DNA of 34,062 nucleotides from Acidobacteriaceae bacterium. GTDB lineage: Bacteria; Acidobacteriota; Terriglobia; Terriglobales; Acidobacteriaceae. The DNA lies in the NCBI GenBank assembly GCA_003152695.1, contig PMAT01000064.1, forward strand, positions 1 through 34,062. The letters are read 5' to 3'. The position numbers were made by a program, and so were the translations under genes. This document shows positions 10,264-22,675 of the stretch, in pieces. The notes beneath the pieces are model-generated. The model did not search any database and was not told the origin of the DNA. It saw nothing but the letters and a program-made list of their open reading frames with translations. How positions within the stretch are numbered: position 1 is the first letter of the stretch; the number at the start of each line of letters is the position of its first letter.

Positions 10264-10419
10264 CGCTTATTTACCTCCGCCCGCCTCTGCGGGTGATGCC
10301 TAACAGTCTGCACAGGGTTGTAGTCTATCTCGCTGGAGTTCATGGAGTGTTTTGATCCGGGCAGGGGGAACCGCCCTGCTGTTCCGATGCTTGTGGGCAT
10401 GGGCCGCCTTCAATCTGAT

Positions 10420-10614
10420 CTACAACATTCCGCCGGTTCTCGTGGTCAGAACATTTAGCGCCATCTCCAGCTTGGCGATGGCTTTATCCAAGTCGGGATG
10501 TTTGTCGAGTTGCTGCCTCAGCCCACTCAAAATGCGATGCGCCTCGGCAACGTGCTCGGCCGCTGGGTGGTCTTTGGTTGCAGTGGTGTTTTCTTCGGAA
10601 GACTCGGGACTCAT
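10420..10614 (-). CDS. small hypothetical helical protein
   Basis: A 64-residue protein with a Ser/Glu/Thr-rich N-terminus and a likely two-helix remainder (AAEHVAEAHRILSGLRQQL and DLDKAIAKLEMALNVL). A modest AGGTG ribosome site lies before the ATG. No family is recognised. It is a single gene between the peptidase and the channel, transcribed away from the latter. It could be a small DNA- or protein-binding factor; function unknown. Confidence 0.5.
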   Translation of the reverse strand: MSPESSEENTTATKDHPAAEHVAEAHRILSGLRQQLDKHPDLDKAIAKLEMALNVLTTRTGGML

Positions 10615-10669
10615 GGAATCACCTGACGAACATCTTACCCGCTAGCCACGCCGTTGAAAACCGCAGAGG

Positions 10670-11857
10670 TTGCGGCTTCTCGAATTCATCCGTGTGGCTG
10701 TGTGTTTCGGCTTGCGCTCAAAGCCGGTTCCGGTGCAAACTCTGCCAACGCCTGTGAATGGACGTCCCGTGGAATCCAAGGAAAAATCGAATCCGGCCGC
10801 AATCGTGATTCTTTACTGCATTGCCACCGTCACCATCGCCGCCTACGGCTACGGGATCGGGGGCATGGACTCGCTCCGGGCAGGCGCACTCTACGCCGTC
10901 GCCGGCTTGATTCTCGCATTCGCCTGCGTAGGCTTCGCGCCCCGATTCATCGTGGTGGTTGCGCTTGCGACCGGCATGCTCGGCAGCATGATGCGGGCCT
11001 CCATCGCTCCCGAGATGACGTCGCTCATTCCCCGGCAGAGCACAATTGACTACTTGCAGAAAATGATGTCGGTCTGCGGCGCCATTGGTTTTGCCGGGAG
11101 CCTGTACGGTGGATTTCGCTTTACCGGCAAGGGCATTTTCAACTGGGTCAGCAAGGCCCTGCTTAGCCGCCTGCCAGCTTCCAAACCCGCATCAGTTCCA
11201 TTGCAACATCATGCGATGCGGCAATTGGCCCATCACTTCTACGCCTCCGAGCGAATGTACTTCTCGATACTGGCTGCCTTTGCCAGCGCACTGATCGCGC
11301 AAATCGAGGTCCATCCCGTTCCCCGTTCGCTGCTCATCATCCTGCTGGCGATCCTGATCTCCACCAATCTCGCGTGGCTTCTGGGCGAGTGGCTGAAACC
11401 ACGGCTGCTGGTGCTGGTCGGCGTCTTCCGCATATTGCAGCAGATGTGGGAAGCGCTTCTCGCCTTCTTGCTAGGCTATGCCGCCATCATCTTTATTTTC
11501 GCGTGTTTTTACGCCGCAGCCTGGCAACACAACCGCTCTTCCGCTTTCCAAGGCATGAGTCTGATTTCGCCTTTGCCTCCCAGTTTCGGTCAGTTCGTGT
11601 ACTTCTCCGTGGTCACCATGGCCACGCTGGGTTACGGAGACGTGATCCCGTCCGATGCCCTGACCCGGACACTTGCTTGTATCGAGGTGGTGATCGGTGT
11701 GGGGTGGGTGACCGTCGTCTTGAGTGCCGCCTCAGCGCTGGCTCGTCCCAGAGTGAATCAGATGCTGAAGGAAGTTTGGCTGGAAGAAGGCGAAACCGAT
11801 CCCGAAGATATCCCGCTGCAGGGCAAGGGTAAGGCCGGCGGCTCGCCAAGCGACTAG
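10670..11857 (+). CDS. K+-channel-like membrane protein (Ion_trans_2)
   Basis: A membrane protein of up to 395 residues. It has about six hydrophobic segments (roughly 44-64, 71-90, 93-108, 132-150, 197-212, 219-240) before the pore module. The pore module has a helix at 257-284, a pore loop with the selectivity filter TLGYGD (319-324) and a final helix at 334-357. T-x-G-Y-G-D is the potassium filter. No RCK or cyclic-nucleotide domain follows; the tail is short and acidic. The open frame begins at a TTG (10670); GTG codons at 10754 and 10769 are equally plausible starts, and the first membrane helix begins only after them. Start uncertain, function as a tetrameric K+ channel fairly likely. 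Confidence 0.85.
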   Translation: MRLLEFIRVAVCFGLRSKPVPVQTLPTPVNGRPVESKEKSNPAAIVILYCIATVTIAAYGYGIGGMDSLRAGALYAVAGLILAFACVGFAPRFIVVVALATGMLGSMMRASIAPEMTSLIPRQSTIDYLQKMMSVCGAIGFAGSLYGGFRFTGKGIFNWVSKALLSRLPASKPASVPLQHHAMRQLAHHFYASERMYFSILAAFASALIAQIEVHPVPRSLLIILLAILISTNLAWLLGEWLKPRLLVLVGVFRILQQMWEALLAFLLGYAAIIFIFACFYAAAWQHNRSSAFQGMSLISPLPPSFGQFVYFSVVTMATLGYGDVIPSDALTRTLACIEVVIGVGWVTVVLSAASALARPRVNQMLKEVWLEEGETDPEDIPLQGKGKAGGSPSD

Positions 11858-11944
11858 CTGGACGATGCGGGCGCGTTTGTCCCGCAGCATAAGGCGCGAT
11901 TCTTTGTCGTAGAGTTTGGCCTGGCGTCGTTGCCACTCCGTAGC

Positions 11945-12394
11945 CTAGCCTACCGCCTCGTCCAGCGGAACATTGGCCGTCACCAGATGCCGTTTGGCCT
12001 TTTCTTGTAACTCCTCGGTCATGGGCACGCTCTTGCCGGACTCCAGGCTGGCCTGCACCGCGACGCTGTCGCAAGTTGCCACCATCTTGCCGGTTTCGTC
12101 GTTGTACATCTGATGGAGAAAGCGAAAATATTTTTCGCCGATGGCCAGGAAGCCGCTCTTGATTTCCACCAATTCCCCGCCCCGCAACTCTTCCAGGAAC
12201 TGATAGTTCTGGCGCACGATCGCCACCCGCAAGTTCCTCTGCTTCATCGAAGCCGGGGTCATTCCGATGGCGTGCAGCAAAAACCAGGTGGCCTGGTCGA
12301 AGCGCGAGACATACATGTGCGAGTTCATGTGGCTGGCGAAATCGTACTCCGACGCCAGTACCGCGCCCTTGAAGGTGTGCACCCATTCAGTCAT
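11945..12394 (-). CDS. hotdog-fold acyl-CoA thioesterase (4-hydroxybenzoyl-CoA thioesterase-like)
   Basis: A 149-residue single hotdog domain. The motif EYDFASHMNSHMYVSRFDQA carries the Asp18 and His22-x-Asn24 of the FcbC/YbgC-type active site. Thioesterases of this kind hydrolyse aromatic or short acyl-CoA. Known box gene clusters can carry a benzoyl-CoA thioesterase that releases CoA when the pool is trapped. Here it lies in the minus-strand arm diverging from boxR, 145 bases beyond the alpha/beta hydrolase, which supports (but does not prove) a benzoyl-CoA or ring-cleavage-product role. Confidence 0.85.
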   Translation of the reverse strand: MTEWVHTFKGAVLASEYDFASHMNSHMYVSRFDQATWFLLHAIGMTPASMKQRNLRVAIVRQNYQFLEELRGGELVEIKSGFLAIGEKYFRFLHQMYNDETGKMVATCDSVAVQASLESGKSVPMTEELQEKAKRHLVTANVPLDEAVG

Positions 12395-12416
12395 GTTTTC
12401 GCCTCTTCTGGAAGAA

Positions 12417-12477
12417 CGCTTTTCGCTCTTCGCGATTCGCTTTTCGCTAGCGGCCCTGCAATTGTGTCATCCTGAGC
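12417..12477. repeat. 7-bp tandem repeat followed by a GTCATCCTGAGC element
   Basis: 12417-12451 reads as five 7-base units (CGCTTTT, CGCTCTT, CGCGATT, CGCTTTT, CGCTAGC). Next comes GTCATCCTGAGC (12466-12477), which recurs at 33306-33317 inside the peptide-transporter ATPase gene, and a GTCGAAGGACCC phrase near 12512. The block separates the thioesterase from the hydrolase gene. Confidence 0.7.
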
Positions 12478-12539
12478 GACGAGTCCGGGCGCTCCGGCGA
12501 CCGGGCGAGGAGTCGAAGGACCCCTATAGTGCCCATCCC

Positions 12540-13373
12540 TTATTGTTCTTCAACAGCCGCCTTGGTCGCACGTGTCGTTTCCTCATTACCCTCCACCGCC
12601 GCGACAAAGTCTGCCATTTTCTCCAGTGTCGCTTCCGCCTGATCGCGGTGCGGTGAGTGCCTGCAATTCGGCAGCATCAGAATTTCTGTCGCGGACACGC
12701 GCGCCCGGATCGCCTTTACCTGGGCGATGGTCCCGTATTCGTCCTCTTCGCCTTGAATGCACAGTATCGGGCAGCGGATCGCCGGCAAATACTCTTCGAT
12801 GTTCCACGAGCGAAATTGCCGATCGAGCCAGATATCGTTCCAGCCCCAAAAAGTCTCATCCACGTGCCGGTGGTAGCGCCCAAGTTTCCGCGGCAGATCA
12901 GTCGTCAAATAGGCCACTTTCGCCTCGGTGATGCTCGCGACACTCAGGTCTTCCACAAACACGTGCGGCGCTTCCAGGATCAAGGCGCGCGGCCGATCGG
13001 GATATTTACCCGCAAAGATCAACGCGATTGATCCGCCATCGCTGTGGCCCAGCAAAATTGGCTTCGCGATGCTCAGCTTCACGAGCAACTCCGGCAGCAC
13101 CACTTCGCCTTCGTGGTGCATGAATTCCACCGGACGCTTTTCCAGTAGCTTGTCGGAATTTCCATGTCCATAGCGCGAATAGACCAGTATCCCGCAACCG
13201 GTGCGCAGCGCGAGCCGTTGCGGAAAGTCCTTCCACAGCGCGACCGAGCCCAGGCCCTCGTGCAGCATGACGATCGTCGAGCGGTCGTTGCCTGCCGGCT
13301 CGATCCACACAGTCTCCAGCCGCTTGCCATCAACCAGAACTTCGCCGTGTTGGTGAGGTGCTGCCGCAGCCAT
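12540..13373 (-). CDS. alpha/beta hydrolase in the box locus
   Basis: A 277-residue alpha/beta hydrolase. The oxyanion loop is HEGLG (38-42); the nucleophile Ser111 lies in GHSDGG; the acid is probably Asp211 (GEEDEYG) and the base His239 in NCRHSPHRDQ. The start MAAAAPH at 13373 is 2 bases after the flavodoxin stop; a longer reading overlaps that gene and lacks support. Lactone or ester hydrolases occur in box clusters, where a side product of ring cleavage may lactonise, so that is a possible role. Haloalkane or epoxide chemistry is not indicated because the nucleophile is Ser. Confidence 0.87.
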   Translation of the reverse strand: MAAAAPHQHGEVLVDGKRLETVWIEPAGNDRSTIVMLHEGLGSVALWKDFPQRLALRTGCGILVYSRYGHGNSDKLLEKRPVEFMHHEGEVVLPELLVKLSIAKPILLGHSDGGSIALIFAGKYPDRPRALILEAPHVFVEDLSVASITEAKVAYLTTDLPRKLGRYHRHVDETFWGWNDIWLDRQFRSWNIEEYLPAIRCPILCIQGEEDEYGTIAQVKAIRARVSATEILMLPNCRHSPHRDQAEATLEKMADFVAAVEGNEETTRATKAAVEEQ

Positions 13374-13375
13374 AT

Positions 13376-13852
13376 CTACCCAATCTCCGATGAGGATGCG
13401 AGGTGCTGCTCGGCCCATGGCACCACCCATTGCGCCGCTACCTCTTCGGGCAGGGTGCCCGAGCTTGCGTCGTGCGTCAGGATTTCGCCGGCCCGCTTGG
13501 CGCCGAGCGAAGTCAGCATCTTGTCAAAGCGAATTCCGCCATGACAGTACGTGTTTTTGTAGGTGCGGTCACCCAGCGCGATCACGCCGTAGATTACGCC
13601 GGTGAGGTCCGGCTTCTCACTCTCCAGGCTGTTAAAGAGTGCCTGTGCATTGTCGGGAACATCACCCTGTCCATAGGTGGAAGTGCAAATCAGGAAGGCG
13701 CCCCCGCTCTGAAAGACGCTGGCATCGAGGCCGTCCATCGCCCTGATCGTCGTCTGATGGCCAGCCACCTCCAGCGCTTGCTGCACCTCCTGGGCGACCA
13801 TCTCGGCCGTGCCGGTCATGGTACCCACTAGGATCGTAATGTCGCGGCCCAT
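13376..13852 (-). CDS. flavodoxin-like FMN protein (MioC-like)
   Basis: A 158-residue flavodoxin fold. The phosphate loop is GTMTGTAEMVA (10-20), the first ring loop STYGQGDVPDNA (58-69) and the second GDRTYKNT (94-101), all in the right places for FMN. The length fits free short-chain flavodoxins and MioC. It starts at an ATG with a GGGGA ribosome site and diverges from boxR, sharing a promoter region that contains the TGCA box motif. In the box context it could carry electrons to the BoxB di-iron centre; see the findings. It may equally serve an unrelated redox enzyme. Confidence 0.88.
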   Translation of the reverse strand: MGRDITILVGTMTGTAEMVAQEVQQALEVAGHQTTIRAMDGLDASVFQSGGAFLICTSTYGQGDVPDNAQALFNSLESEKPDLTGVIYGVIALGDRTYKNTYCHGGIRFDKMLTSLGAKRAGEILTHDASSGTLPEEVAAQWVVPWAEQHLASSSEIG

Positions 13853-13870
13853 GCTTGTGTCCCCACTTCA

Positions 13871-13939
13871 GGCACTATTATACGTGCGACCATGGAAGTA
13901 TAATGCATCCACGGTGAGCCGAAAACGCGACATAGTGCA
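13871..13939. promoter_or_regulatory. divergent flavodoxin/boxR promoter with TGCA and GCACTATWAT motifs
   Basis: The plus strand has TATAAT (13899-13904) immediately followed by TGCAT, ten bases before the boxR GTG. The minus strand has TATAAT (13882-13877) inside GCACTATTATACGTGC (an imperfect palindrome, GCAC...GTGC), 24 bases before the flavodoxin ATG. A further TGCA lies at 13936-13939, inside boxR. Neither strand has a good -35. The same TATAATGCATC string is found at the boxC promoter, so one regulator probably acts on all three. Confidence 0.6.
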
Positions 13940-14852
13940 TGTTGTGGAGAACGCGGCGGCGCAGACCCCTGCCGCCGCGGTTTCCGCTGGCGCCGACTCC
14001 AGCTCCCAATCCGATTACCTCCGGTTGCTCGGCGAGCGGGTGCGAGAGATGCGCGCTCGCCGCGGTATGACCCGCAAGATCCTCGCCCGTGACTCGGGAG
14101 TATCCGAACGCTACCTGGCGCAACTGGAAAGCGGACAGGGCAACATTTCCATCCTCCGACTGCGACAAATCGCACAGGCGCTCGACACTCCTCTCGAAGC
14201 CCTGGTGCTCGACGGCCCCGAGCCGCCTGTGGACCTGGTGCACACCACCGAATTTCTGCGGCGGCTGCCGGCGGCGGAACTAGTGGAGGCCCGCCGACTG
14301 CTGGTGGAACACTTCGGCGGCGTTGACCTCGACGCGAGGCGCGGCCGCATCGCCTTGGTCGGCCTGCGCGGCGCCGGCAAGTCCACGTTAGGAGCCATGC
14401 TGGCTGATCGTTTGGAGGCGCCGTTTCTCGAGCTGGATCGCCTGATCGAGCAGGAGAGCGGGGTCAGCCTCAGCGTCATCTTCGATCTTTATGGGCAGAG
14501 CGGCTTTCGCCGGCTGGAGCGCCGCGTTTTGGACCAGGTCATCGAACGCTATCCGCGATTCGTGCTGGCTACTGGCGGCAGCCTGGTCTCCGAGCCCGCG
14601 ACCTTCGAGCGGTTGCTTACTATGTGCTTCACGGTCTGGCTGCGGGCCACGCCGGAAGAGCACATGCAGCGTGTCATCGCTCAGGGCGACATGCGGCCCA
14701 TGGCCGACAACCGCGAATCCATGTCGGACCTGCGACGCATTCTCGACGTGCGCGAGCCGCTGTATCGCAAAGCCGACGCGACCATCGATACCAGCGGCGG
14801 TTCGGTGGAAGAGACGCTGGAGATGCTGCAGCAGTCAATTCGCCAGAGCTGA
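13914..14852 (+). CDS. boxR: BoxR/BzdR-type regulator (HTH fused to shikimate-kinase-like domain)
   Basis: About 312 residues. An XRE-type helix-turn-helix spans 37-98 (RARRGMTRKILARDSGVSERYLAQLESG) and is followed by a linker. A shikimate-kinase-like domain begins near 145, with P-loop GLRGAGKS (150-157), DRLIE and a GGS loop. This two-domain build is the hallmark of the BzdR/BoxR family, repressors of benzoate catabolism that bind benzoyl-CoA through the kinase-like domain. The GTG at 13914 lies just after a TATAAT box; GTG 13944 is an alternative start. The open frame continues upstream into flavodoxin territory but is not supported. boxC and boxB follow on the same strand after a HigBA module. 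Likely autoregulated through TGCA sites. Confidence 0.93.
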   Translation: MSRKRDIVHVVENAAAQTPAAAVSAGADSSSQSDYLRLLGERVREMRARRGMTRKILARDSGVSERYLAQLESGQGNISILRLRQIAQALDTPLEALVLDGPEPPVDLVHTTEFLRRLPAAELVEARRLLVEHFGGVDLDARRGRIALVGLRGAGKSTLGAMLADRLEAPFLELDRLIEQESGVSLSVIFDLYGQSGFRRLERRVLDQVIERYPRFVLATGGSLVSEPATFERLLTMCFTVWLRATPEEHMQRVIAQGDMRPMADNRESMSDLRRILDVREPLYRKADATIDTSGGSVEETLEMLQQSIRQS

Positions 14853-14891
14853 TTGGGTTTTCAGCGCTGTTCCCTTGCCAGTCGATTTTTC

Positions 14892-14922
14892 TTGACCCGT
14901 TCGCAAATTGCGAACATCTTAT
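14892..14922 (+). promoter_or_regulatory. higBA promoter with palindromic operator
   Basis: TTGACC (14892-14897) is a good -35. A perfect inverted repeat TTCGCAA-A-TTGCGAA (14900-14914) fills the spacer, and a weak TCTTAT (14917-14922, 19-base spacing) may be the -10. The site is suited to binding by the HigA helix-turn-helix protein. No Shine-Dalgarno precedes the GTG of higB at 14926. Confidence 0.6.
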
Positions 14923-14925
14923 TAA

Positions 14926-15213
14926 GTGCACGTTATCAGCCGGAAGAGACTTCTGGATGCGGCGAAGCGCCATGGCGATCTCTCCGCTCCCTTGGATTTG
15001 TGGTACCGGGTGGCCAAGAAGGCAGAGTGGAAGTCGCTGGACGAAGTGCGACAGACGTTTCCCTCTGCGGATGCAGTCGGGAAATACACAGTGTTCAACA
15101 TCAAGGGCAATTCATACCGCATGATCGCTGAGATTAATTATCGCAGCCGACGAATCTTTGTCCGGCAGGTGCTGTCGCACGCGGATTACGAGAGGGGAGG
15201 ATGGAAACAATGA
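14926..15213 (+). CDS. higB: HigB-type mRNA interferase toxin
   Basis: A 95-residue HigB toxin, starting at GTG with the family's usual opening HVISRKRLLDAAKRH. The characteristic KYTVFNIKGNSYRMIAEINY strand pair and the FVRQVLSHADY C-terminus are present, matching ribosome-dependent HigB RNases of the HicA-unrelated RelE superfamily. Toxin precedes antitoxin, as in other higBA operons, and its TGA overlaps the higA ATG by 4 bases. It is sandwiched between boxR (74 bases upstream) and boxC. Confidence 0.9.
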   Translation: MHVISRKRLLDAAKRHGDLSAPLDLWYRVAKKAEWKSLDEVRQTFPSADAVGKYTVFNIKGNSYRMIAEINYRSRRIFVRQVLSHADYERGGWKQ

Positions 15214-15608
15214 ACGCGCTGGCAATCAATCCGGTTTACGCCAAGTTGCTGGCGCAAATTCCTCCCAAGGTCATCCGCAGCGAAGCCGAGAACGAGCACT
15301 ACGTCAATGCGCTTTACGCGCTTGAACAAAAGCGCTCGCTGACGAGAGAAGAGAAAGAACTGGCTGACCTGCTGACGCTGTTGATTGAAGATTTCGAGGC
15401 AAAGCGGTACCAGTTGCCACGCGCCACGCCGCGGCAAGCATTGTCTTTTCTGATGGAAGAACATGGACTCAAGCAGAAAGACCTGATTGAGATCTTCGGT
15501 TCGCGCAGCACCGTTTCCGAAGTGATTAGCGGCAAGCGAGAACTGACGAAAGCACAGATCAGCCGCCTGAGCCAGCGTTTCCATGTCTCGCCGGAGGTGT
15601 TCTTCTAG
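15210..15608 (+). CDS. higA: HigA-type helix-turn-helix antitoxin
   Basis: A 132-residue antitoxin. The N-terminal half is helical (HYVNALYALEQKRSLTREEKELADLL). The C-terminal XRE domain (about 75-130) holds the HTH (LKQKDLIEIFGSRSTVSEVISGKRELTKAQISRL is abbreviated here as its LKQKDLIEIFG and STVSEVISGKR parts). A strong GGGGAGG ribosome site (15194-15200) abuts an ATG at 15201, but the ATG at 15210 has normal 9-base spacing and overlaps the toxin stop (ATGA), so I start there. It should neutralise HigB and repress through the TTCGCAA palindrome. Confidence 0.9.
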   Translation: MNALAINPVYAKLLAQIPPKVIRSEAENEHYVNALYALEQKRSLTREEKELADLLTLLIEDFEAKRYQLPRATPRQALSFLMEEHGLKQKDLIEIFGSRSTVSEVISGKRELTKAQISRLSQRFHVSPEVFF

Positions 15609-15631
15609 CTCTTCTCTCTAATCCGACAATC

Positions 15632-15678
15632 TGCACCATACTTCCTCTCCTAATATCTAAGAAATGCACTATAATGCA
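15632..15678 (+). promoter_or_regulatory. boxCB promoter/operator, TGCA-N6-TGCA over TATAAT
   Basis: TGCA (15665-15668) and TGCA (15675-15678) are separated by 6 bases, and TATAAT (15670-15675) lies between and overlaps the second. Another TGCA is at 15632-15635. No clear -35 is present. BzdR/BoxR repressors are known to recognise repeated TGCA sequences, so a bound repressor would cover the -10. The boxC start is 64 bases downstream with a GAGGAGA ribosome site (15724-15730). Confidence 0.65.
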
Positions 15679-15741
15679 TCTATTCGCGTGGGGATCTTGC
15701 AGGCGCCCGCCCGGCGCTGCCTTGAGGAGAGTACGACCTGT

Positions 15742-17415
15742 ATGCCAACCGTAAACCAGAAGGAACTGGTCACGTTCGACGTGGCTCCGGGAGAGCATCG
15801 CCATTGGCGGCTCACATTTGATGGCCAGGTGGCGACGCTGGCCATGGACGTCAACGAAGATTACGGCCTGAGGCCGGGCTACAAGCTCAAGCTCAACTCT
15901 TACGATCTCGGCGTTGACATTGAGTTGCACGACATCCTGCAGCGCATTCGCTTCGAGCATCCCGAAGTGGCCTGCGTCGTGCTCACCAGCGCGCGCGAGC
16001 GCATGTTCTGCGCCGGCGCCAACATCTACATGCTGGGCACCTCCTCGCATGCCTGGAAGGTGAACTTCTGCAAGTTCACCAACGAGACGCGCAACGGTAT
16101 GGAGGACTCCAGCCGTCATGACGACCTGAAGTTTCTGGCCGCGCTGAACGGCACCACCGCCGGCGGCGGCTACGAGCTGGCGTTGGCCTGCGACGAGATT
16201 CTGCTGGTCGATGATCGCTCCAGCGCCGTGAGCTTGCCCGAAGTTCCGCTGCTCGGCGTCCTGCCCGGCACGGGCGGTCTCACGCGCGTGGTGGACAAGC
16301 GCAAAGTGCGCCGCGACCGGGCTGACATGTTCTGCACCAATCCTGACGGCGTCAAGGGCGAGCGCGCCAAAGAGTGGGGCTTGGTGGATGACATCGCAGT
16401 CCCAGAGAAATTCCCGGAACTGGTCCGCACCCACGCGCAAGCGCTGGTAAACGACTCAACCCGTCCCGCTGCTGCGAAGGGCATTAAGCTGACTCCGCTG
16501 GATCGTAAGCTCGACGACGACACCTACCACTACAAGCACGTTAACGTCGCGTTCGATCGCGCTGCGCGAACCGCGACGCTGACGGTGCGCGCGCCCGAAG
16601 GAGTACAGCCTCAGGAGCCCGATGCGATTCACGCCGCAGGCGACCAGTGGTGGCCGCTGGCGATGGCGCGCGAGCTTGACGACGCCATCCTCATGCTTCG
16701 CGTCAACGAACCGGAACTCGGACTCTTGCTGCTGAAGACATCGGGCAGTGCTGAAGCGGTCCTTGCCAGCGATGCCGTCATGCTCGAACATCGCAACGAT
16801 TGGCTGGTGCGTGAAACCATCGGCATGTTGCGCCGCACCTTGGCGCGGCTGGATGTTTCTTCGCGCAGCATGTACGCCATCATCGAGCCGGGTTCGTGTT
16901 TCGCCGGCGTGCTTTTCGAACTGGCACTGGCCGCCGATCGCAGCTACATGCTGGCGCCTCCCGAAGAAGAAGGCGACGCGTCCATTCCGAAAATCGCCGT
17001 GGACGAAATGAATTTCGGTTTGCTGCCCGCGGTTAATGCTCGCGGCCGGCTCGAAACACGATTCAGTGGCAATGCGCGATGCATGGCTGGCGCAGTAGAA
17101 GCCAAGGGCAAAGTCCTTGGCCCCAAGGAAGCTCTTGAGCTCGGCCTTATTACCTTGGCGCCCGACGATCTCGACTGGGAAGACGAGGTCCGTATGGCCA
17201 TCGAAGAGCGTGCCGCGCTCTCGCCCGACGCGCTCACCGGCATGGAAGCCAGCCTGCGCTTCCCGGGAGCGGAAACCACGGAGACCAAGGTGTTTGGCCG
17301 CCTCTCCGCATGGCAGAACTGGGTATTTATCCGGCCGAACTCGACCGGCGAGCAGGGCGCGCTCAAGCTGTTCGGCACGGGATCGAAGGCGCGCTTCAAT
17401 TGGGAGAGAGTTTAA
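15742..17415 (+). CDS. boxC: BoxC, benzoyl-CoA-dihydrodiol lyase
   Basis: A 557-residue protein, the family's usual length. BoxC is a crotonase-superfamily enzyme that opens the 2,3-epoxide of benzoyl-CoA, releasing formate and giving 3,4-dehydroadipyl-CoA semialdehyde. Crotonase signatures are present: the oxyanion-hole segments MFCAGANIYMLG (88-99) and NGTTAGGGYELALACDEI (136-153), and VPLLGVLPGTGG (168-179). A second crotonase-like half follows from about residue 270, as in known BoxC. The start MPTVNQKEL has a good ribosome site; an upstream in-frame ATG at 15664 falls in the promoter motif and is rejected. The stop overlaps boxB by one base (TAATG). Confidence 0.95.
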   Translation: MPTVNQKELVTFDVAPGEHRHWRLTFDGQVATLAMDVNEDYGLRPGYKLKLNSYDLGVDIELHDILQRIRFEHPEVACVVLTSARERMFCAGANIYMLGTSSHAWKVNFCKFTNETRNGMEDSSRHDDLKFLAALNGTTAGGGYELALACDEILLVDDRSSAVSLPEVPLLGVLPGTGGLTRVVDKRKVRRDRADMFCTNPDGVKGERAKEWGLVDDIAVPEKFPELVRTHAQALVNDSTRPAAAKGIKLTPLDRKLDDDTYHYKHVNVAFDRAARTATLTVRAPEGVQPQEPDAIHAAGDQWWPLAMARELDDAILMLRVNEPELGLLLLKTSGSAEAVLASDAVMLEHRNDWLVRETIGMLRRTLARLDVSSRSMYAIIEPGSCFAGVLFELALAADRSYMLAPPEEEGDASIPKIAVDEMNFGLLPAVNARGRLETRFSGNARCMAGAVEAKGKVLGPKEALELGLITLAPDDLDWEDEVRMAIEERAALSPDALTGMEASLRFPGAETTETKVFGRLSAWQNWVFIRPNSTGEQGALKLFGTGSKARFNWERV

Positions 17416-18839
17416 TGGCAATCAACTATCGGGACCGAATACCGAACAACGTAGACCTGGGCTCCAACCGTACCTTGCAGCGCGCGCTGGAACATTGGCA
17501 GCCGGAATTTCTGAAGTGGTGGCAGGACCTCGGTCCGCGCGATTTTCAGGTGGCTGACGTTTATCTGCGCACCGCGACCTCGGTGGACGCGAAGGGTTGG
17601 GCGACCTATGGATTCGTCCATATGCCGGAGTACCGCTGGGGAATCTTTCTCGCCGACCGCGATCCCAATCGCAAGATTGGCTTTGGCGACAACTACGGGC
17701 AGGAAGTCTGGCAGCAGATTCCCGGTGAATTCCGCGCCATATTGCGTCGTCTCATTGTTACCCAGGGCGATACCGAGCCTGCGTCCGTCGAGCAACAGCG
17801 CATGCTCGGCCACACTGCTCCGTCACTTTATGACTTGCGCAATCTGTTCCAGGTAAATGTCGAGGAAGGCCGCCATCTGTGGGCGATGGTTTATCTGCTG
17901 CACGCCTACTTTGGGCGCGACGGCCGCGAAGAAGCCGAAGAGTTGCTGGAGCGCCACTCCGGAGATGCCAACAAGCCGCGCATCCTCGGCACCTTCAATG
18001 AACCCATCAACGACTGGCTGAGCTTCTTCATGTTCACTTATTTCACCGATCGCGATGGCAAGTTCCAGTTGAAGTCGCTGGCCGAGTCGAGCTTCGATCC
18101 GCTGGCCCGCACCTGCTCGTTCATGCTGACCGAAGAAGCGCACCACATGTTTGTCGGCGACACCGGCATCAACCGCGTGGTCAGGCGCACGCTGGAAGTG
18201 ATAAAAGAGTTAGGCACCGAAGATCCGCTGGCCGTCCGCAACGCCGGCGCCATCGATCTGCCCACGGTGCAGAAGTATCTGAACTTCTGGTTCAGTTCGT
18301 CGCTCGATTTGTTCGGCTCGGAGACTTCCTCGAATGCGGCTTCCTATTTCGCGAACGGATTGAAGGGCCGGCCGGATGAGGCGCAATACGAAGATCACCT
18401 CGCTGTCGAGCAGACCTTTTCGCTGGAGCTGCCGGACGGGAGCGGTAGCACGAAGACCGAGCAAATCCCCATGCGCAACGCGATGAACGAAGTCACGCGA
18501 GGCTCCTACGTCCGCGATTGCGAGCTGGGCGTCAAACGCTGGAACCGGCTGATCGAGAAGGCCGGCTATTCCTTCCGGTTGTCGCTGCCCAGCACGCGTT
18601 TCCGGCGCAATATCGGAGCGTGGGCTGCCGTTCCCACCGATCTGACCGGACGGCCGATCGGCCAGGAACAGTTCAACGCTCAGATTGGCGAATGGCTGCC
18701 CAGCGAGAGCGACCGGGCATACATACTCAGCCTCATGCACGGAGTACAGGAGCAGGGCAAGATGGCCGCATGGATTGCACCTCCCGATCGCGGCATCAAC
18801 AACAATCCCGTGGACTACGAGTACGTGAAGCTGCATTAA
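17415..18839 (+). CDS. boxB: BoxB, di-iron benzoyl-CoA 2,3-epoxidase
   Basis: A 474-residue BoxB, the oxygenase component that adds one O2-derived oxygen to benzoyl-CoA. The carboxylate-bridged di-iron ligands line up with those I recall from the BoxB structure, with a one-residue offset: Glu121, Glu151 and His154 (VEEGRHLW), Asp212 (FTDRD), Glu241 and His244 (TEEAHHMF). The reaction needs two electrons, normally from the BoxA reductase, which is not present. It starts at an ATG overlapping the boxC stop, with a GGGAGAGAG ribosome site, so the two genes are translated together. Cytoplasmic. Confidence 0.96.
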   Translation: MAINYRDRIPNNVDLGSNRTLQRALEHWQPEFLKWWQDLGPRDFQVADVYLRTATSVDAKGWATYGFVHMPEYRWGIFLADRDPNRKIGFGDNYGQEVWQQIPGEFRAILRRLIVTQGDTEPASVEQQRMLGHTAPSLYDLRNLFQVNVEEGRHLWAMVYLLHAYFGRDGREEAEELLERHSGDANKPRILGTFNEPINDWLSFFMFTYFTDRDGKFQLKSLAESSFDPLARTCSFMLTEEAHHMFVGDTGINRVVRRTLEVIKELGTEDPLAVRNAGAIDLPTVQKYLNFWFSSSLDLFGSETSSNAASYFANGLKGRPDEAQYEDHLAVEQTFSLELPDGSGSTKTEQIPMRNAMNEVTRGSYVRDCELGVKRWNRLIEKAGYSFRLSLPSTRFRRNIGAWAAVPTDLTGRPIGQEQFNAQIGEWLPSESDRAYILSLMHGVQEQGKMAAWIAPPDRGINNNPVDYEYVKLH

Positions 18840-18848
18840 GGCAGGGGT

Positions 18849-18955
18849 TAGTGGCTAGTGGCTAGTGGCTAGCGAGGAACGAGAAGATAAGAGCCGAAAG
18901 CTGACCGCTGAGAGCTGAGGGCTAAAGGCAAAAGGCTAGAAGCTAAGAGCTAACA
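18849..18955. repeat. 7-bp tandem repeat arrays after boxB
   Basis: 18849-18869 holds three exact TAGTGGC units. 18893-18955 can be read as nine consecutive 7-base units, most of them GCTRANN (e.g. GCTGACC, GCTGAGA, GCTGAGG, GCTAAAG, GCTAGAA, GCTAAGA, GCTAACA). The array fills nearly the whole spacer between boxB and the reductase gene. Confidence 0.85.
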
Positions 18956-18970
18956 GCCCCAGCGGAGTTC

Positions 18971-20233
18971 ATGAAACACATCGCCATCATCGGTAGCGGT
19001 CCGGCGGGTTGTTGCCTGGCGGACAGCCTGCTTCGCTTGATCCCCGATGCTTCCATCGACATCTTCGAACGGCTGCCCGCGCCATTCGGACTTGTCCGCT
19101 ATGGGGTTGCTCCGGACCATCAGGGCACGAAGGCGGTTGCGCGAGTGCTGGACCGCGTGCTTTCCCGCGACCGCGTCAGCTTTTTCGGCAATGTCGAAGT
19201 TGGCCGTGACGTTAGTCTTGAGGAGCTGATGTCGCTCTACGATGCCGTCGCGCTGGCAACCGGGGCCTCGCGCGATCGACGTCTCAACATTCCAGACGAG
19301 GAACTTCCGGGCGTCCTCGGGTCGGGCGCATTTACCGGCTGGTACAACGGCCATCCGGACAGCCAACCGCCCACAATCGACGGTGTGCGATCGGCAGTCG
19401 TCATCGGCAACGGCAATGTAGCGATTGATGTGGCCCGCGTCCTAGCCAAGAGTGCCCCCGAGTTGGCTGGTTCCGATCTTTCACCCGAAGTGACGTCGTG
19501 GCTGGAAACCCAGCCTATCGAGACCATCCACGTCGTCGGCCGGCGCAGTGCTGCGGATGCGAAGTTCACCCAGCACGAACTCGCCGAGCTGGGCACTTTG
19601 CAGCGCGCGTGTCGCATGGTGCAGGATCCGACCGCCCTCGCTGGAGATGGCGCAATCGTTGAAACCTTACGTAGTTTCGCCGCGGACCAATCGCGCACGG
19701 CTCCGGTCAGAATTCACTTTCATTTCAACTTGACGCCCATCGCCTTCCTCGGTAAGGGCCGACTCAGCGCCGTGCAGTTTCGTTCTGCCGACGGAGCGCT
19801 CCACGAAATTCCCGCGCAACTGGCCATCACCTGCATCGGATATGAAACGCGTCCGTGCTGCACTGCCACTCCTGCCAACGGTGTATTCGCCAACATAGAA
19901 GGAAAAGTCAAAGACAGGCTGTACGTGGTCGGATGGGCAAAGCGAGGCCCTTCGGGAACAATTCCGACCAATCGCACTGAGGCTCAGCAGGTAGCCCAGA
20001 AGATTGCGCAAGAAGTGCCGGACAGGCCACGACGGGGGAGAGCGGGGGTCCTCCAACTGCTGGCGCAAAGGCATGTCTGCTGGGTGGACTATTCTGCATG
20101 GCGGCGAATCGATGCCGCCGAACTCGCCCGCGCCGGTGACGGACGTTGCCGGGAAAAATTCACCACCGTGACCAAGATGCTCGAAGCCGCACAGGTTGGC
20201 CAGGGCCTTGGTTGCCCGAGCGCAACCACCTGA
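18971..20233 (+). CDS. FAD-dependent NADPH-ferredoxin/adrenodoxin-reductase-like enzyme (FprA type)
   Basis: A 420-residue flavoprotein. The FAD-binding GSGPAG (8-13) is at the N-terminus, followed by FGLVRYGVAPDH (39-50), which is characteristic of the adrenodoxin reductase/FprA family. The NADPH site GNGNVAIDVAR (146-156) and VVGRRSAADAKFT follow, and the C-terminal FAD loop is GWAKRGPSGTIPTN. Such enzymes move electrons from NADPH to a ferredoxin or flavodoxin. It has no iron-sulphur domain, unlike BoxA. It follows boxB on the same strand after 131 bases of tandem repeats and precedes a small membrane protein. A role as BoxB electron supplier is inference from position and partner (flavodoxin at 13.4 kb). 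Confidence 0.92.
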   Translation: MKHIAIIGSGPAGCCLADSLLRLIPDASIDIFERLPAPFGLVRYGVAPDHQGTKAVARVLDRVLSRDRVSFFGNVEVGRDVSLEELMSLYDAVALATGASRDRRLNIPDEELPGVLGSGAFTGWYNGHPDSQPPTIDGVRSAVVIGNGNVAIDVARVLAKSAPELAGSDLSPEVTSWLETQPIETIHVVGRRSAADAKFTQHELAELGTLQRACRMVQDPTALAGDGAIVETLRSFAADQSRTAPVRIHFHFNLTPIAFLGKGRLSAVQFRSADGALHEIPAQLAITCIGYETRPCCTATPANGVFANIEGKVKDRLYVVGWAKRGPSGTIPTNRTEAQQVAQKIAQEVPDRPRRGRAGVLQLLAQRHVCWVDYSAWRRIDAAELARAGDGRCREKFTTVTKMLEAAQVGQGLGCPSATT

Positions 20234-20268
20234 CCCAACACCGCAGAATCTAGAATCGGCTGCAAACC

Positions 20269-20290
20269 AGCCCAACGCGCTGGGCTTATA
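20269..20290 (+). terminator. possible weak terminator after the reductase gene
   Basis: A 6-bp stem (AGCCCA/TGGGCT, 20269-20274 and 20281-20286) with a 6-base loop is followed by TTATAT. The stem is short and the T-run poor, so this is a weak candidate for the end of the boxCB-reductase transcript. Confidence 0.3.
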
Positions 20291-20372
20291 TCTCAAAATG
20301 AGGCAGAATTCTGGAGCGCGCAAGGTCTGGTAAGCTACGCTGAGTACTACCGTCAGCGAAGCCCGTCAGGGT

Positions 20373-20918
20373 ATGAACAGCATCGCCAGTCGAACCCACA
20401 TCCGGCGTACCAAGTGTGAGCACACCCACCAGGGCGGGCTGCGCATGGTCGCGGTGTTCGAGGCGCTGAAAGGAGCTTTGGCCCTGGCTAGCGCTTACTT
20501 CTTGATCGTCATGATTCGGCGTGATGTGGATTTCGAGGAGGCGGCAGAGCATATTCTTTTCTCGCTGCATATCAATCCCAGTCGCCATTGGTCCCAGGAA
20601 TTTCTGCACGCGGCCGACAAAATCTCCAGCACTAGTATTGTAATGATCGGTGCGATCGCGATTACTTACGCCATTCTGCGCTTCGCAGAAGGCTACGGCT
20701 TGTGGAGGCAACGCGCGTGGGCGGAATGGCTGGCAATCATCTCAGGATGCGTGTACCTCCCGTTCGAAATCTACAAAGTAATTCGCCGCTCCAACCAACT
20801 CCACTGGGCGGTCCTCGGGATCAACATCCTGGTCGTTCTTTACATCGCCTGGGTGCGCTGGGACGAAATCAAAGCCGCCCGCCTCCGCGCATCGGAAATT
20901 TCCAGCGAAGGCGTCTAG
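20373..20918 (+). CDS. DUF2127-like membrane protein
   Basis: A 181-residue protein. After a basic N-terminus comes GLRMVAVFEALKGALALASAYFL, the opening typical of DUF2127. Further hydrophobic segments are at about 87-106, 116-137 and 144-160, giving about four membrane helices. It ends in an amphipathic helix (IKAARLRASEISSEG). The family has no known reaction. The gene ends 4 bases inside the convergent AidB-like gene (20915-20918). Part of the box transcript or a separate small gene; the 139-base gap favours the latter. Confidence 0.8.
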   Translation: MNSIASRTHIRRTKCEHTHQGGLRMVAVFEALKGALALASAYFLIVMIRRDVDFEEAAEHILFSLHINPSRHWSQEFLHAADKISSTSIVMIGAIAITYAILRFAEGYGLWRQRAWAEWLAIISGCVYLPFEIYKVIRRSNQLHWAVLGINILVVLYIAWVRWDEIKAARLRASEISSEGV

Positions 20919-22564
20919 ATCACATGGGCGGAGCGCACGGCCTCGTCGCTCAATAGTTCCAGAACACCCCGGCGCGCGTTGTCGTCTTCCATTCCGAAGG
21001 CCGGCGGCTCAATCTCCTCAAAGTATCGCCAGGCGCTATGCCCCGGCAACGGGTTGCCGGTCGTCTGGGCGTCGCTGGCCGCTTCGCACAACAGGGCAAA
21101 CGCCAGGCTCTGGCTCAAGCGATGCAACAGCTTCCTCGCATAGCGTTGTGCGCTCTGCTCATCGCGCATGGCGATCGCCACGGCCTCGCGGTCGCCCTCG
21201 AGCCTGGATTGCATGGCCTTGCGCAGTTTGTCGTGCACCACTGGGAGCTTCTCTTGGATCGCTTGCATTCGCGACTGGTATTGCTCCCAGCCGCGATAAC
21301 GAGGGGCGAGCAAACGCAGCAACTCCAGCGCCTGAATATTGGCCGGACCCTCCCACACGGTCAGCACTTGCGCATCCCGCAACAGGCGGGCCGCGGGATA
21401 GTCGCTGGTATAGCCGTTGCCCCCGATCAACTCCAGCGCAGCCCGCGCCGCTGTAATGGCATACTCCGCGGTCAAGTATTTCGCCAGCGCGGTAACCAAT
21501 CGCAACCAGGTGCGGCGCTCCGGGTCGTGCTGCGCCTCGTCGAAAGTAATGGCAGCCTCGAAGGCGAGCAACGCGCCTGCCTCGAACTGCACGCGCATCC
21601 GCAACAGGTCATCCTGCACCATGGGGTAATCCACCAGCACGTGGCCGAAGACATGGCGCGATTTCGCCCAAGCAAGGGCCTCGCGCAGTGCCCTGCGCTG
21701 TACGCCCGCCGACCCAACGGCGTTGTGAACGCGGCTGTACTCCAGCGCATCCATCATCAACCGGAAGCCATCAGGAGGCGCAGCCACTTCGACAGCTTCC
21801 GCGCCGAGTAATTCGATCTCTCCGGTCGGAAGCCCTTTGGTACCGAGCTTGTCTTTCAAGCGACGGATGCGATAGTGATTGGGCCGCCCATCTTCCAGAT
21901 GACTGGGCACGAGGTAGAGACCAAGTCCAGCCGTCCCGCTTGCGGCGCCCTCGGGCCGCGCCGTGGCCAACGCCAGACCGCTGTTGGCGTTGCTGGTAAA
22001 CCACTTCAATCCATGCAGCGCAAAGCGGTCGCCGTGCTGAACAGCCGTGGTGGTGGTCGCTCCCACGTCGCTGCCGCCATGTTGCTCGGTCGCCCATGTG
22101 CCGCCGGTCTTCGCGAGACCGTCCATGCGTGCAACGTCGTAAAGAAATTGCTGCCGCACCGCGTCCGGCGCATGCGCGCTGAGTACGTACGCCACTGCTC
22201 CGGTGAGAGTAACCGGACAATGCAAGCTGATGTCGGCTTGCGATAACACATAGCCCATGGCGAAGGTCAGCAGGTGAGGCGCCTGCTCCGCGTAGGGCAA
22301 TCCGATGATGCCGCGACGATACAGTTCCTGATGTTGCTGGTCGTACCACCGGTTCGCGACAACCCGGTTCACCACTTCGCCATTGCGGTCGTAGGTCTCC
22401 AACGCCGGAGGCGCGTAGCGATCGGTATAGTTCGCCTGCGCGTCCACGTCGGTGCACACCCAGTCGTAGAAGTCGGCGAGTTGCCGACTGTACTCGGCCA
22501 TGCGCGGCACGCGCGCCGTAAGCCAGGGTTCGAGATAGAGGTCAAAGCTGGTGGAATCGTTCAT
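20915..22564 (-). CDS. AidB-like acyl-CoA dehydrogenase
   Basis: A 549-residue flavoprotein of the AidB branch of the acyl-CoA dehydrogenases. The N-terminal part aligns in style with AidB (YDRNGEVVNRV, CPVTLTGAV). The FAD motifs WATEQHGGSDV and LKWFTSNANSGLALATA are present, as are RRLKDKLGTKGLPTGEI and the ELIGGNGYTSDYPAARLLRDAQVLTVWEG region with the base Glu. The start is MNDSTSF at 22564 with a GGAGG ribosome site; a TTG 12 codons upstream is rejected. AidB-type enzymes are poorly understood and bind DNA in E. coli, where they have weak isovaleryl-CoA dehydrogenase activity. A role in degrading the box product is possible but not shown. Tail-to-tail overlap of 4 bases with the DUF2127 gene. 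Confidence 0.9.
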   Translation of the reverse strand: MNDSTSFDLYLEPWLTARVPRMAEYSRQLADFYDWVCTDVDAQANYTDRYAPPALETYDRNGEVVNRVVANRWYDQQHQELYRRGIIGLPYAEQAPHLLTFAMGYVLSQADISLHCPVTLTGAVAYVLSAHAPDAVRQQFLYDVARMDGLAKTGGTWATEQHGGSDVGATTTTAVQHGDRFALHGLKWFTSNANSGLALATARPEGAASGTAGLGLYLVPSHLEDGRPNHYRIRRLKDKLGTKGLPTGEIELLGAEAVEVAAPPDGFRLMMDALEYSRVHNAVGSAGVQRRALREALAWAKSRHVFGHVLVDYPMVQDDLLRMRVQFEAGALLAFEAAITFDEAQHDPERRTWLRLVTALAKYLTAEYAITAARAALELIGGNGYTSDYPAARLLRDAQVLTVWEGPANIQALELLRLLAPRYRGWEQYQSRMQAIQEKLPVVHDKLRKAMQSRLEGDREAVAIAMRDEQSAQRYARKLLHRLSQSLAFALLCEAASDAQTTGNPLPGHSAWRYFEEIEPPAFGMEDDNARRGVLELLSDEAVRSAHVI

Positions 22565-22675
22565 GGTCGCCTCCGCAATGTCAATGTCGCGAGGAGCCAA
22601 CTAGGGTGAGCTTAAACCTTTTGCAGTATTTTGTGACAACAGGTTTATATTTGCTGCCAGCGCGTGATGCGAGAG

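Follow-up and report, generated by a model that had tools for sequence, protein, structure and literature searches.

Results

A box locus without boxA carries a flavodoxin gene facing boxR

The stretch of DNA analyzed here (the window: 34,062 nucleotides of contig PMAT01000064.1, Acidobacteriaceae bacterium, assembly GCA_003152695.1) contains a gene cluster of the aerobic benzoyl-CoA (box) pathway. On the plus strand, boxR, boxC, and boxB are followed by the gene for an adrenodoxin-reductase-like enzyme; on the minus strand, a flavodoxin gene faces boxR and is followed by genes for an alpha/beta hydrolase, whose start probably lies near 13373, two bases away from the stop of the flavodoxin gene, and then for a thioesterase (Table 1). 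The window combines a BoxB of the group that we call type II below, a flavodoxin gene divergent from boxR, and no gene for BoxA, which a section of PMC4498308 describes as an NADPH/FAD reductase with two 4Fe-4S clusters. We propose, with a probability of roughly three in four, that the window represents a BoxA-free, flavodoxin-linked variant of the pathway, in which a dedicated MioC-like flavodoxin, encoded opposite boxR by a gene with BoxR-type operators, would supply type II BoxB with electrons.

Table 1. Features of the box locus, numbered from the first letter of the window.
Feature	Position	Strand	Support and remarks
4HBT_2 thioesterase	11945..12394	-	PF13279 2.7e-19; same place in close relatives
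Alpha/beta hydrolase	12540..13373	-	PF00561, PF12697; box-linked relatives
MioC-like flavodoxin, proposed electron donor of BoxB	13376..13852	-	PF00258 1.7e-27; 158 aa
Two operator/promoter-like sites, GCACTATTATACGT and GAAGTATAATGCATC, between the flavodoxin gene and boxR	13872..13909		Motif search
boxR, regulator with HTH and shikimate-kinase-like parts	13944..14852	+	NF006015, PF01202, PF01381; start estimated, reading frame opens at 13809
HigB toxin (PF09907) and HigA HTH antitoxin pair, between boxR and boxC	14926-15608
BoxR-type operator TGCA-N6-TGCA (TGCACTATAATGCA), upstream of boxC	15665..15678
boxC	15745..17415	+	TIGR03222 886.2 bits; 762.7 bits to BoxC 2w3p; start estimated
boxB, benzoyl-CoA 2,3-epoxidase, type II clade	17415..18839	+	TIGR03225 757.7 bits; 665 bits to 3per
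Adrenodoxin-reductase/FprA-type NADPH reductase, proposed donor of the flavodoxin	18971..20233	+	420 aa; same position in other loci
DUF2127 gene, between reductase and dehydrogenase	20373-20918
AidB-like acyl-CoA dehydrogenase	20915..22600	-	PF18158, PF00441

The original prediction, made from the sequence alone, had named boxR, boxC, and boxB from their key residues, a flavodoxin gene diverging from boxR, and an adrenodoxin-reductase-like gene after boxB, and each of these assignments was borne out. All three Box proteins score far above the curated cut-offs: 757.7 against 499.1 bits for BoxB (TIGR03225), 886.2 against 712.3 bits for BoxC (TIGR03222), and 407.9 against 204 bits for BoxR (NF006015). 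The six diiron ligands of BoxB and the second-shell residues Q117, T120, S124, and T211 (window numbering), identified from a section of PMC5489048, align with those of Azoarcus evansii BoxB (3per/3pm5). The flavodoxin lies nearest, among solved structures, to 2m6r (a flavodoxin), MioC (2hna), PA3435, and cindoxin (4oxx); its best NCBIfam matches are the flavodoxin model PRK08105 (134.7 bits) and MioC (118.2 bits), both under the curated cut-offs of 160 and 158 bits, respectively. The layout originally drawn, with thioesterase, hydrolase, and AidB-like dehydrogenase genes, holds for those genes and lacked the HigB/HigA pair and the DUF2127 gene. Of the relatives' loci compared, only L035 also has the HigA-type antitoxin (G, L, and C numbers are our handles for genomes, loci, and contigs).

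BoxA is absent from the genome

We searched the genome, which is 4.50 Mb long and 99.38% complete, with the BoxA model TIGR03224 (cut-off 459 bits). None of its 22 candidates, all of which were scored, passed. The best (63 bits, model positions 157-379 of 411) comes from contig C100, from a frame of 253 aa that is similar to the model's reductase half; the frame has counterparts in seven relatives and may encode a ferredoxin/flavodoxin-NADP reductase (FNR). The reductase in the window gave no TIGR03224 match at E values up to 0.001, and no match was placed on the window's contig. The model itself works: it finds BoxA in 44 of the 75 boxB-bearing genomes of the order Burkholderiales (that of G325). 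We therefore rejected the possibility that BoxA is encoded elsewhere in the genome, in agreement with the absence proposed originally.

This absence extends to related genomes. In the window's class, 41 of 299 genomes carry a boxB over the cut-off, and none of the 41, our genome included, has a BoxA over the cut-off. Neither does any of 41 boxB genomes taken from a set of 51 loci that BoxB similarity had turned up (with 10 loci left out), where the best match reached 140 bits, in G331; the two lists overlap by at least two genomes (G106/G308 and G262/G312).

Two BoxB clades have different partners

Among 399 genomes of the order Burkholderiales, the 75 with boxB over the cut-off have BoxB scores that form two groups, type I at 838-918 bits and type II at 718-775 bits. 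The window BoxB (758 bits) falls in the type II group, and an extra copy in G518 (529 bits) fits neither. The two groups differ sharply in their partners, with the proviso that at most three boxB candidates were scored per genome and a second boxB could be missed. All 28 genomes with type II and without type I carry the flavodoxin, and none carries BoxA, a zero in which misses are possible for G486, G553, G664, and G696, each of which has more than the 20 BoxA candidates scored per genome. The four genomes with both types carry both partners, and the 43 with type I and without type II carry BoxA in 40 cases and the flavodoxin in four; type I genomes without BoxA are G391 (boxB at a contig end), G423, and G502. 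Thus, 44 of 47 genomes that have a type I BoxB also have BoxA, versus 0 of 28 with type II only (Fisher p about 1e-17), and 32 of 32 type II genomes have the flavodoxin, versus 4 of 43 others of the same order (Fisher p about 4e-17), although both p-values are too strong because the genomes are related by descent. The flavodoxin matches behind these counts comprise 36 strong ones (at least 188 bits) and two weak ones (77-78 bits; profile A1). In G553, the flavodoxin gene lies about 1.1 Mb from boxB on the same contig. In G349, G442, G607, and G691 (loci L242, L262, L263, and L265), the genes stand in the order boxB-I, boxA, boxB-II, two BoxB types, presumably with different partners, lying within one tandem cluster.

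A midpoint-rooted FastTree phylogeny of 138 BoxB sequences, a non-random sample in that many loci were found through the window's BoxB, separates a type I clade of 64 sequences (support 1.0) from a type II clade of 62 sequences from 59 genomes (support 0.79, moderate). Twelve sequences lie outside both clades: ten with neither partner, one from G331, a genome with a stop codon inside its flavodoxin frame, and the G518 copy that fits neither score group. Across the tree, 51 of 59 type II genomes carry the flavodoxin, versus 2 of 60 type I-only genomes, and the flavodoxin profile matches 23 of 77 further boxB genomes. The ligand and second-shell positions are kept in both clades (126 sequences; one type II row is gapped at 211/212 and one has an X at 241), and 18 type-specific positions in the sequence alignment separate type I from type II. 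We also considered a distinctive net charge of type II BoxB and rejected it, the charges being alike (mean -12.6 versus -11.1).

Two side observations concern the BoxB family. A large acidobacterial clade inside type I (L104-L121, for example L104:12592-15689) lacks both BoxA and the flavodoxin; at 9 of 20 of its loci, boxB lies near 2Fe-2S and molybdopterin-binding subunits of xanthine-dehydrogenase type, perhaps those of a 4-hydroxybenzoyl-CoA reductase. A shorter BoxB-like family, scoring about 120-225 bits to TIGR03225 and hence below the cut-off, is common in the window's class, including the genome's own family (for example G002:C152 and G224:C15).

The flavodoxin gene shares operator-like sites with boxR

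According to a part of PMC6449761, BoxR binds TGCA repeats with the main motif ATGCACTATAGTGCAT. In the window, a 16-base stretch before boxC, ATGCACTATAATGCAT, is one base off the palindrome given there, and two degenerate TGCA-type sites lie between the flavodoxin gene and boxR. The short motif is unremarkable: exact TGCA-N6-TGCA was found once in the window with 0.81 expected, and with one mismatch it falls below expectation (13 found, 20.1 expected). The operator evidence is therefore the longer motif, found three times with 0.58 expected, together with its conserved place. Using a 14-base consensus from the window with up to three mismatches, and expectations from single-base shuffles, we found an operator-like site in 42 of 45 readable flavodoxin-boxR regions versus 0.6 expected (type II loci, tandem genomes included; the loci are related and hence not independent cases, and L038, in which no boxR was seen, was left out). 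Upstream of boxC, 14 of 44 loci have such a site. The shared TGCA-type promoter that had been proposed for the flavodoxin gene and boxR is thus matched by predicted operator sites in a conserved place. By this evidence, BoxR would bind the window sites, and the flavodoxin gene is probably under BoxR control.

An FprA-type reductase accompanies the flavodoxin in some loci

The reductase encoded after boxB aligns with bovine adrenodoxin reductase (1cjc; 242 bits in two stretches) and mycobacterial FprA (1lqt; 217 bits over residues 3-405), the enzymes nearest to it, with GSGPAG, GNGNVA, and GRR stretches aligned. This full-length similarity and the FAD and NADPH motifs point to membership in the adrenodoxin reductase/FprA family. 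Counting genes up to 4 kb downstream of boxB, only in genomes with at least 3 kb read there, we found an FprA-type gene in 15 of 55 flavodoxin-bearing, BoxA-free genomes versus none of 30 entries with neither partner (p 0.0008; one genome, G106/G308, is entered twice), and in none of five with both. The 15 belong to Acidobacteria and Alphaproteobacteria; no flavodoxin-bearing locus read from the order Burkholderiales showed the gene. We conclude that the FprA-type enzyme is a likely but replaceable donor of the flavodoxin, and that its reducing the flavodoxin is likely in the window's own genome and not general. Outside box clusters, L340 and L341 encode a flavodoxin of the same family and, no more than about 4 kb away, an FprA-type reductase, with no box genes detected; L340 also holds, by eye, a branched-chain-type substrate-binding protein.

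The flavodoxin leads back to box genes in Alphaproteobacteria

We also took a sample that was independent of BoxB: 385 genomes of the class Alphaproteobacteria (that of G310), searched with the flavodoxin profile at 1e-20 and with at most nine candidates scored per genome. The profile matches 52 genomes and yields 39 strong loci (at least 168 bits), 36 of which are covered by the following counts. Their neighbors are a divergent boxR (27 loci), a box-type hydrolase (25), boxC (19), boxB (17), and a benzoate-CoA ligase (17), some contigs being short; only 3 of the 36 lack boxR, ligase, and hydrolase alike. A comparison of gene order in other Acidobacteriota had been suggested originally; beyond that group too, the flavodoxin-boxR divergon recurs, the reductase being less constant, and the arrangement, found also in Burkholderiales and Alphaproteobacteria, is not peculiar to Acidobacteria. 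In eight loci (L310, L311, L323, L328-L331, and L343), the flavodoxin gene faces boxR with no boxC or boxB in the stretch fetched, and seven of these have the ligase. No BoxB or PaaA relative was found in the flavodoxin-bearing, boxB-less loci of this class.

The same flavodoxin family faces PaaA-like genes

In five loci (L344, L345, L346, L347, and L353; L354 duplicates L345 over a longer stretch), the flavodoxin gene faces a gene for a PaaA-like diiron protein, and paaG-, paaI-, and paaK-like genes come after it. The PaaA-like protein of L344 (locus 8042-16501) has 255 aa and scores 83 bits to PF05138 and 78 bits to TIGR02156 (cut-off 280). The L344 and L346 proteins that were scanned yielded no PaaB, PaaC, or PaaE (the search did not extend to other frames or to other parts of these genomes), and eight further frames beside the PaaA-like genes of L353 and L354 gave no match to PaaB, PaaC, PaaD, or PaaE. 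A full PaaABCE set beside the PaaA-like gene was not seen among the scanned proteins, with the rest of those genomes again outside the search. These arrangements suggest a general role for the flavodoxin family as a partner of diiron aryl-CoA epoxidases. The fuller form of this idea, to which we give an even chance, is that one MioC-like flavodoxin family is a general, dedicated donor for such enzymes, having replaced BoxA for type II BoxB in Acidobacteria and Proteobacteria and also serving a stand-alone PaaA-like epoxidase in phenylacetate-type clusters. If so, aerobic CoA-dependent aromatic degradation would have a whole flavodoxin-driven branch.

Among the same loci, an FAD monooxygenase gene occurs in L344 and L346, and a second, distant PaaA-like gene lies near the flavodoxin cluster at L353:12922-13812 (74 bits to TIGR02156) and L354:10096-10926 (72 bits). 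In L348-L352, crotonase-type genes stand opposite the flavodoxin gene, and a search of these loci for BoxB and PaaA relatives gave nothing.

The epoxidation module is retained where boxD is lost

BoxD and a benzoate-CoA ligase had been expected elsewhere in the genome, and the search does not bear this out. In relatives, boxD lies between the hydrolase and flavodoxin genes (L037: 736 bits to PRK11903, cut-off 444). Among nine genomes compared, it is full-length in six (G301-G305 and G336) and split into two pieces in G300; only distant BoxD matches came from the window's genome (five, the best 76 bits at 26% identity) and from G299, and in both the hydrolase and flavodoxin genes abut. The loci of this loss series are window positions 13371-13378, L130 and L133 (G300), and L124-L129. 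The best benzoate-CoA ligase match in the genome reaches 257.5 bits against a cut-off of 375.25, though a distant ligase may be present; three of the nine genomes have a ligase over the cut-off. Other aldehyde dehydrogenases and acyl-CoA ligases are encoded in the genome. On this gene content, the epoxidation module is complete and the full benzoate route is here a candidate. We read the window as an acidobacterial member of the variant that has lost boxD and carries an additional FprA-type reductase.

The alpha/beta hydrolase is perhaps the lactonase of other BoxR regulons, which include one according to a part of PMC6449761. Close relatives of the AidB-like dehydrogenase occupy the equivalent place only in the nearest genomes. 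A role for this enzyme as a BoxD substitute is unsupported, since it also occurs in relatives with full-length BoxD (L036 and L038).

Discussion

The near mutual exclusion of BoxA and the flavodoxin, the co-occurrence of the flavodoxin with type II BoxB, the shared operator, and the PaaA-like parallel together give strong comparative-genomic support to the view that the flavodoxin replaces BoxA. In the proposed chain, electrons would pass from NADPH to the FAD of the FprA-type reductase in the window's own genome, from the reductase to the FMN of the flavodoxin, and from the flavodoxin to the diiron site of BoxB, which would convert benzoyl-CoA and O2 to 2,3-epoxybenzoyl-CoA for hydrolysis by BoxC. 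This is the electron route of the original prediction, of which the part placing the flavodoxin in BoxA's position has strong comparative support and the part naming the FprA-type enzyme as its donor has weaker support, with counts of 15 of 55 versus 0 of 30. The gene associations argue that the BoxA-free, flavodoxin-linked pathway is real and widespread and that the flavodoxin most likely reduces type II BoxB. The textbook supply through BoxA is then probably only one of at least two electron supplies for this pathway; a transient electron donor should be easy to replace.

Several observations weigh against this interpretation. Eight of the 59 type II genomes lack the flavodoxin; all eight are metagenome-assembled genome (MAG) records, and inspection by eye of the frames beside boxR and boxB in six such loci gave nothing convincing as a hidden partner. 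The flavodoxin also occurs in the four type I-not-II genomes mentioned above, three of which show no box genes in the stretch fetched. Both BoxA and the flavodoxin are missing from 35 of 64 type I genomes (among them G391, in which boxB lies at the end of a contig), so that unlinked carriers can apparently feed BoxB. Within the window's class, the flavodoxin is confined to 2 of 41 boxB genomes, the window's own (G000) and G262. In 40 of the 55 flavodoxin-bearing, BoxA-free genomes, including the close relative L038, no FprA-type gene came to light, and the window's genome lacks both BoxD and a ligase over the cut-off.

Some of these points feed alternative explanations. The flavodoxin may feed BoxB and yet receive its own electrons mainly from another FNR elsewhere in the genome; we regard this as possible though not favored. 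It would explain why no FprA-type gene was seen in the flavodoxin-bearing Burkholderiales loci or in L038, and the C100 frame and its counterparts in relatives offer a candidate. The FprA-type genes that do follow boxB, however, were found in Acidobacteria and Alphaproteobacteria, and only in flavodoxin-bearing genomes. Another alternative, which we consider improbable, is that BoxB receives its electrons from the reductase, either directly or by way of an unlinked ferredoxin, while the flavodoxin serves the operon in some other way, such as protection from oxidative stress or reductive removal of the epoxide. Because 35 type I and 8 type II genomes lack BoxA and the flavodoxin alike, other carriers must work somewhere, but the near-constant element of type II genomes is the flavodoxin and not the reductase, no other likely redox acceptor for the flavodoxin was seen within the window cluster, and its family also stands beside the PaaA-like gene.

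The association might also reflect nothing more than common regulation and joint inheritance, flavodoxin and BoxB never being in direct contact. Linkage alone would yield co-occurrence, and the flavodoxin gene does sit in a conserved divergon; the tandem genomes that carry both partners, the separation of about 1.1 Mb in G553, and the PaaA-like parallel make this very unlikely. A different doubt concerns the window's genome alone, where the cluster could be a remnant or have been repurposed, with BoxB and BoxC acting on another acyl-CoA or in detoxification. We hold this to be a tentative alternative: boxD is full-length in six relatives, split in G300, and without a close match here and in G299, and the best ligase match (257 bits) falls short of the cut-off (375 bits), but boxB, boxC, boxR, the flavodoxin gene, and the operator sites are intact, and other aldehyde dehydrogenases and acyl-CoA ligases are available. 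We retain the dedicated flavodoxin as the favored electron donor of type II BoxB.

BoxA is generally taken to be the pathway's reductase; should the flavodoxin stand in for it, a working route may exist in genomes that have been scored as incomplete. A 2024 survey, in the part considered here (PMC10803450), reads the lack of BoxA beside one gene copy as suggesting an impediment. In the betaproteobacterial regulon study, the bacteria examined are described as having boxCBA operons, and its main text does not contain the word flavodoxin (PMC6449761, in part). In the literature collection searched, no paper joins boxA, boxB, benzoyl-CoA, and flavodoxin, and none treats BoxB together with Acidobacteria; one paper each pairs flavodoxin with benzoyl-CoA oxygenase or with benzoate-CoA ligase (PMC10078663 and PMC9973337). 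The two BoxB clades with their different partners, and the four tandem genomes, constitute a natural experiment on partner choice by a diiron oxygenase, and the flavodoxin and reductase offer a simple, separable electron chain for BoxB.

By its best NCBIfam matches, the flavodoxin resembles the MioC/YqcA-type flavodoxins, and it differs from them in its sub-cut-off scores and its tie to box genes. With the canonical box pathway of Azoarcus/Aromatoleum evansii and Paraburkholderia, the window shares BoxB (665 bits to 3per), BoxC (763 bits to 2w3p), and BoxR with its operator motif, and BoxB is expected to perform the same reaction, whereas its genome is without BoxA, BoxD, and a ligase over the cut-off and has a flavodoxin gene in the divergon. 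The phenylacetyl-CoA epoxidase PaaABC(D)E likewise performs an NADPH-fed diiron epoxidation of an aryl-CoA, but, as a section of PMC4498308 sets out, its reductase PaaE is of the 2Fe-2S/FAD kind, and its oxygenase works with PaaB and PaaC as partners; BoxB, in contrast, needs no structural subunit and in the window is flavodoxin-linked. The closest working analogue is the P450cin system, in which, according to a part of PMC9687028, cindoxin reductase and cindoxin serve P450cin. There the acceptor is a heme P450 and not a diiron CoA-ester epoxidase, and the order of carriers, from NADPH through an FAD reductase and an FMN flavodoxin to an oxygenase, is the one that we propose for the window, whose flavodoxin lies near cindoxin in the structure search.

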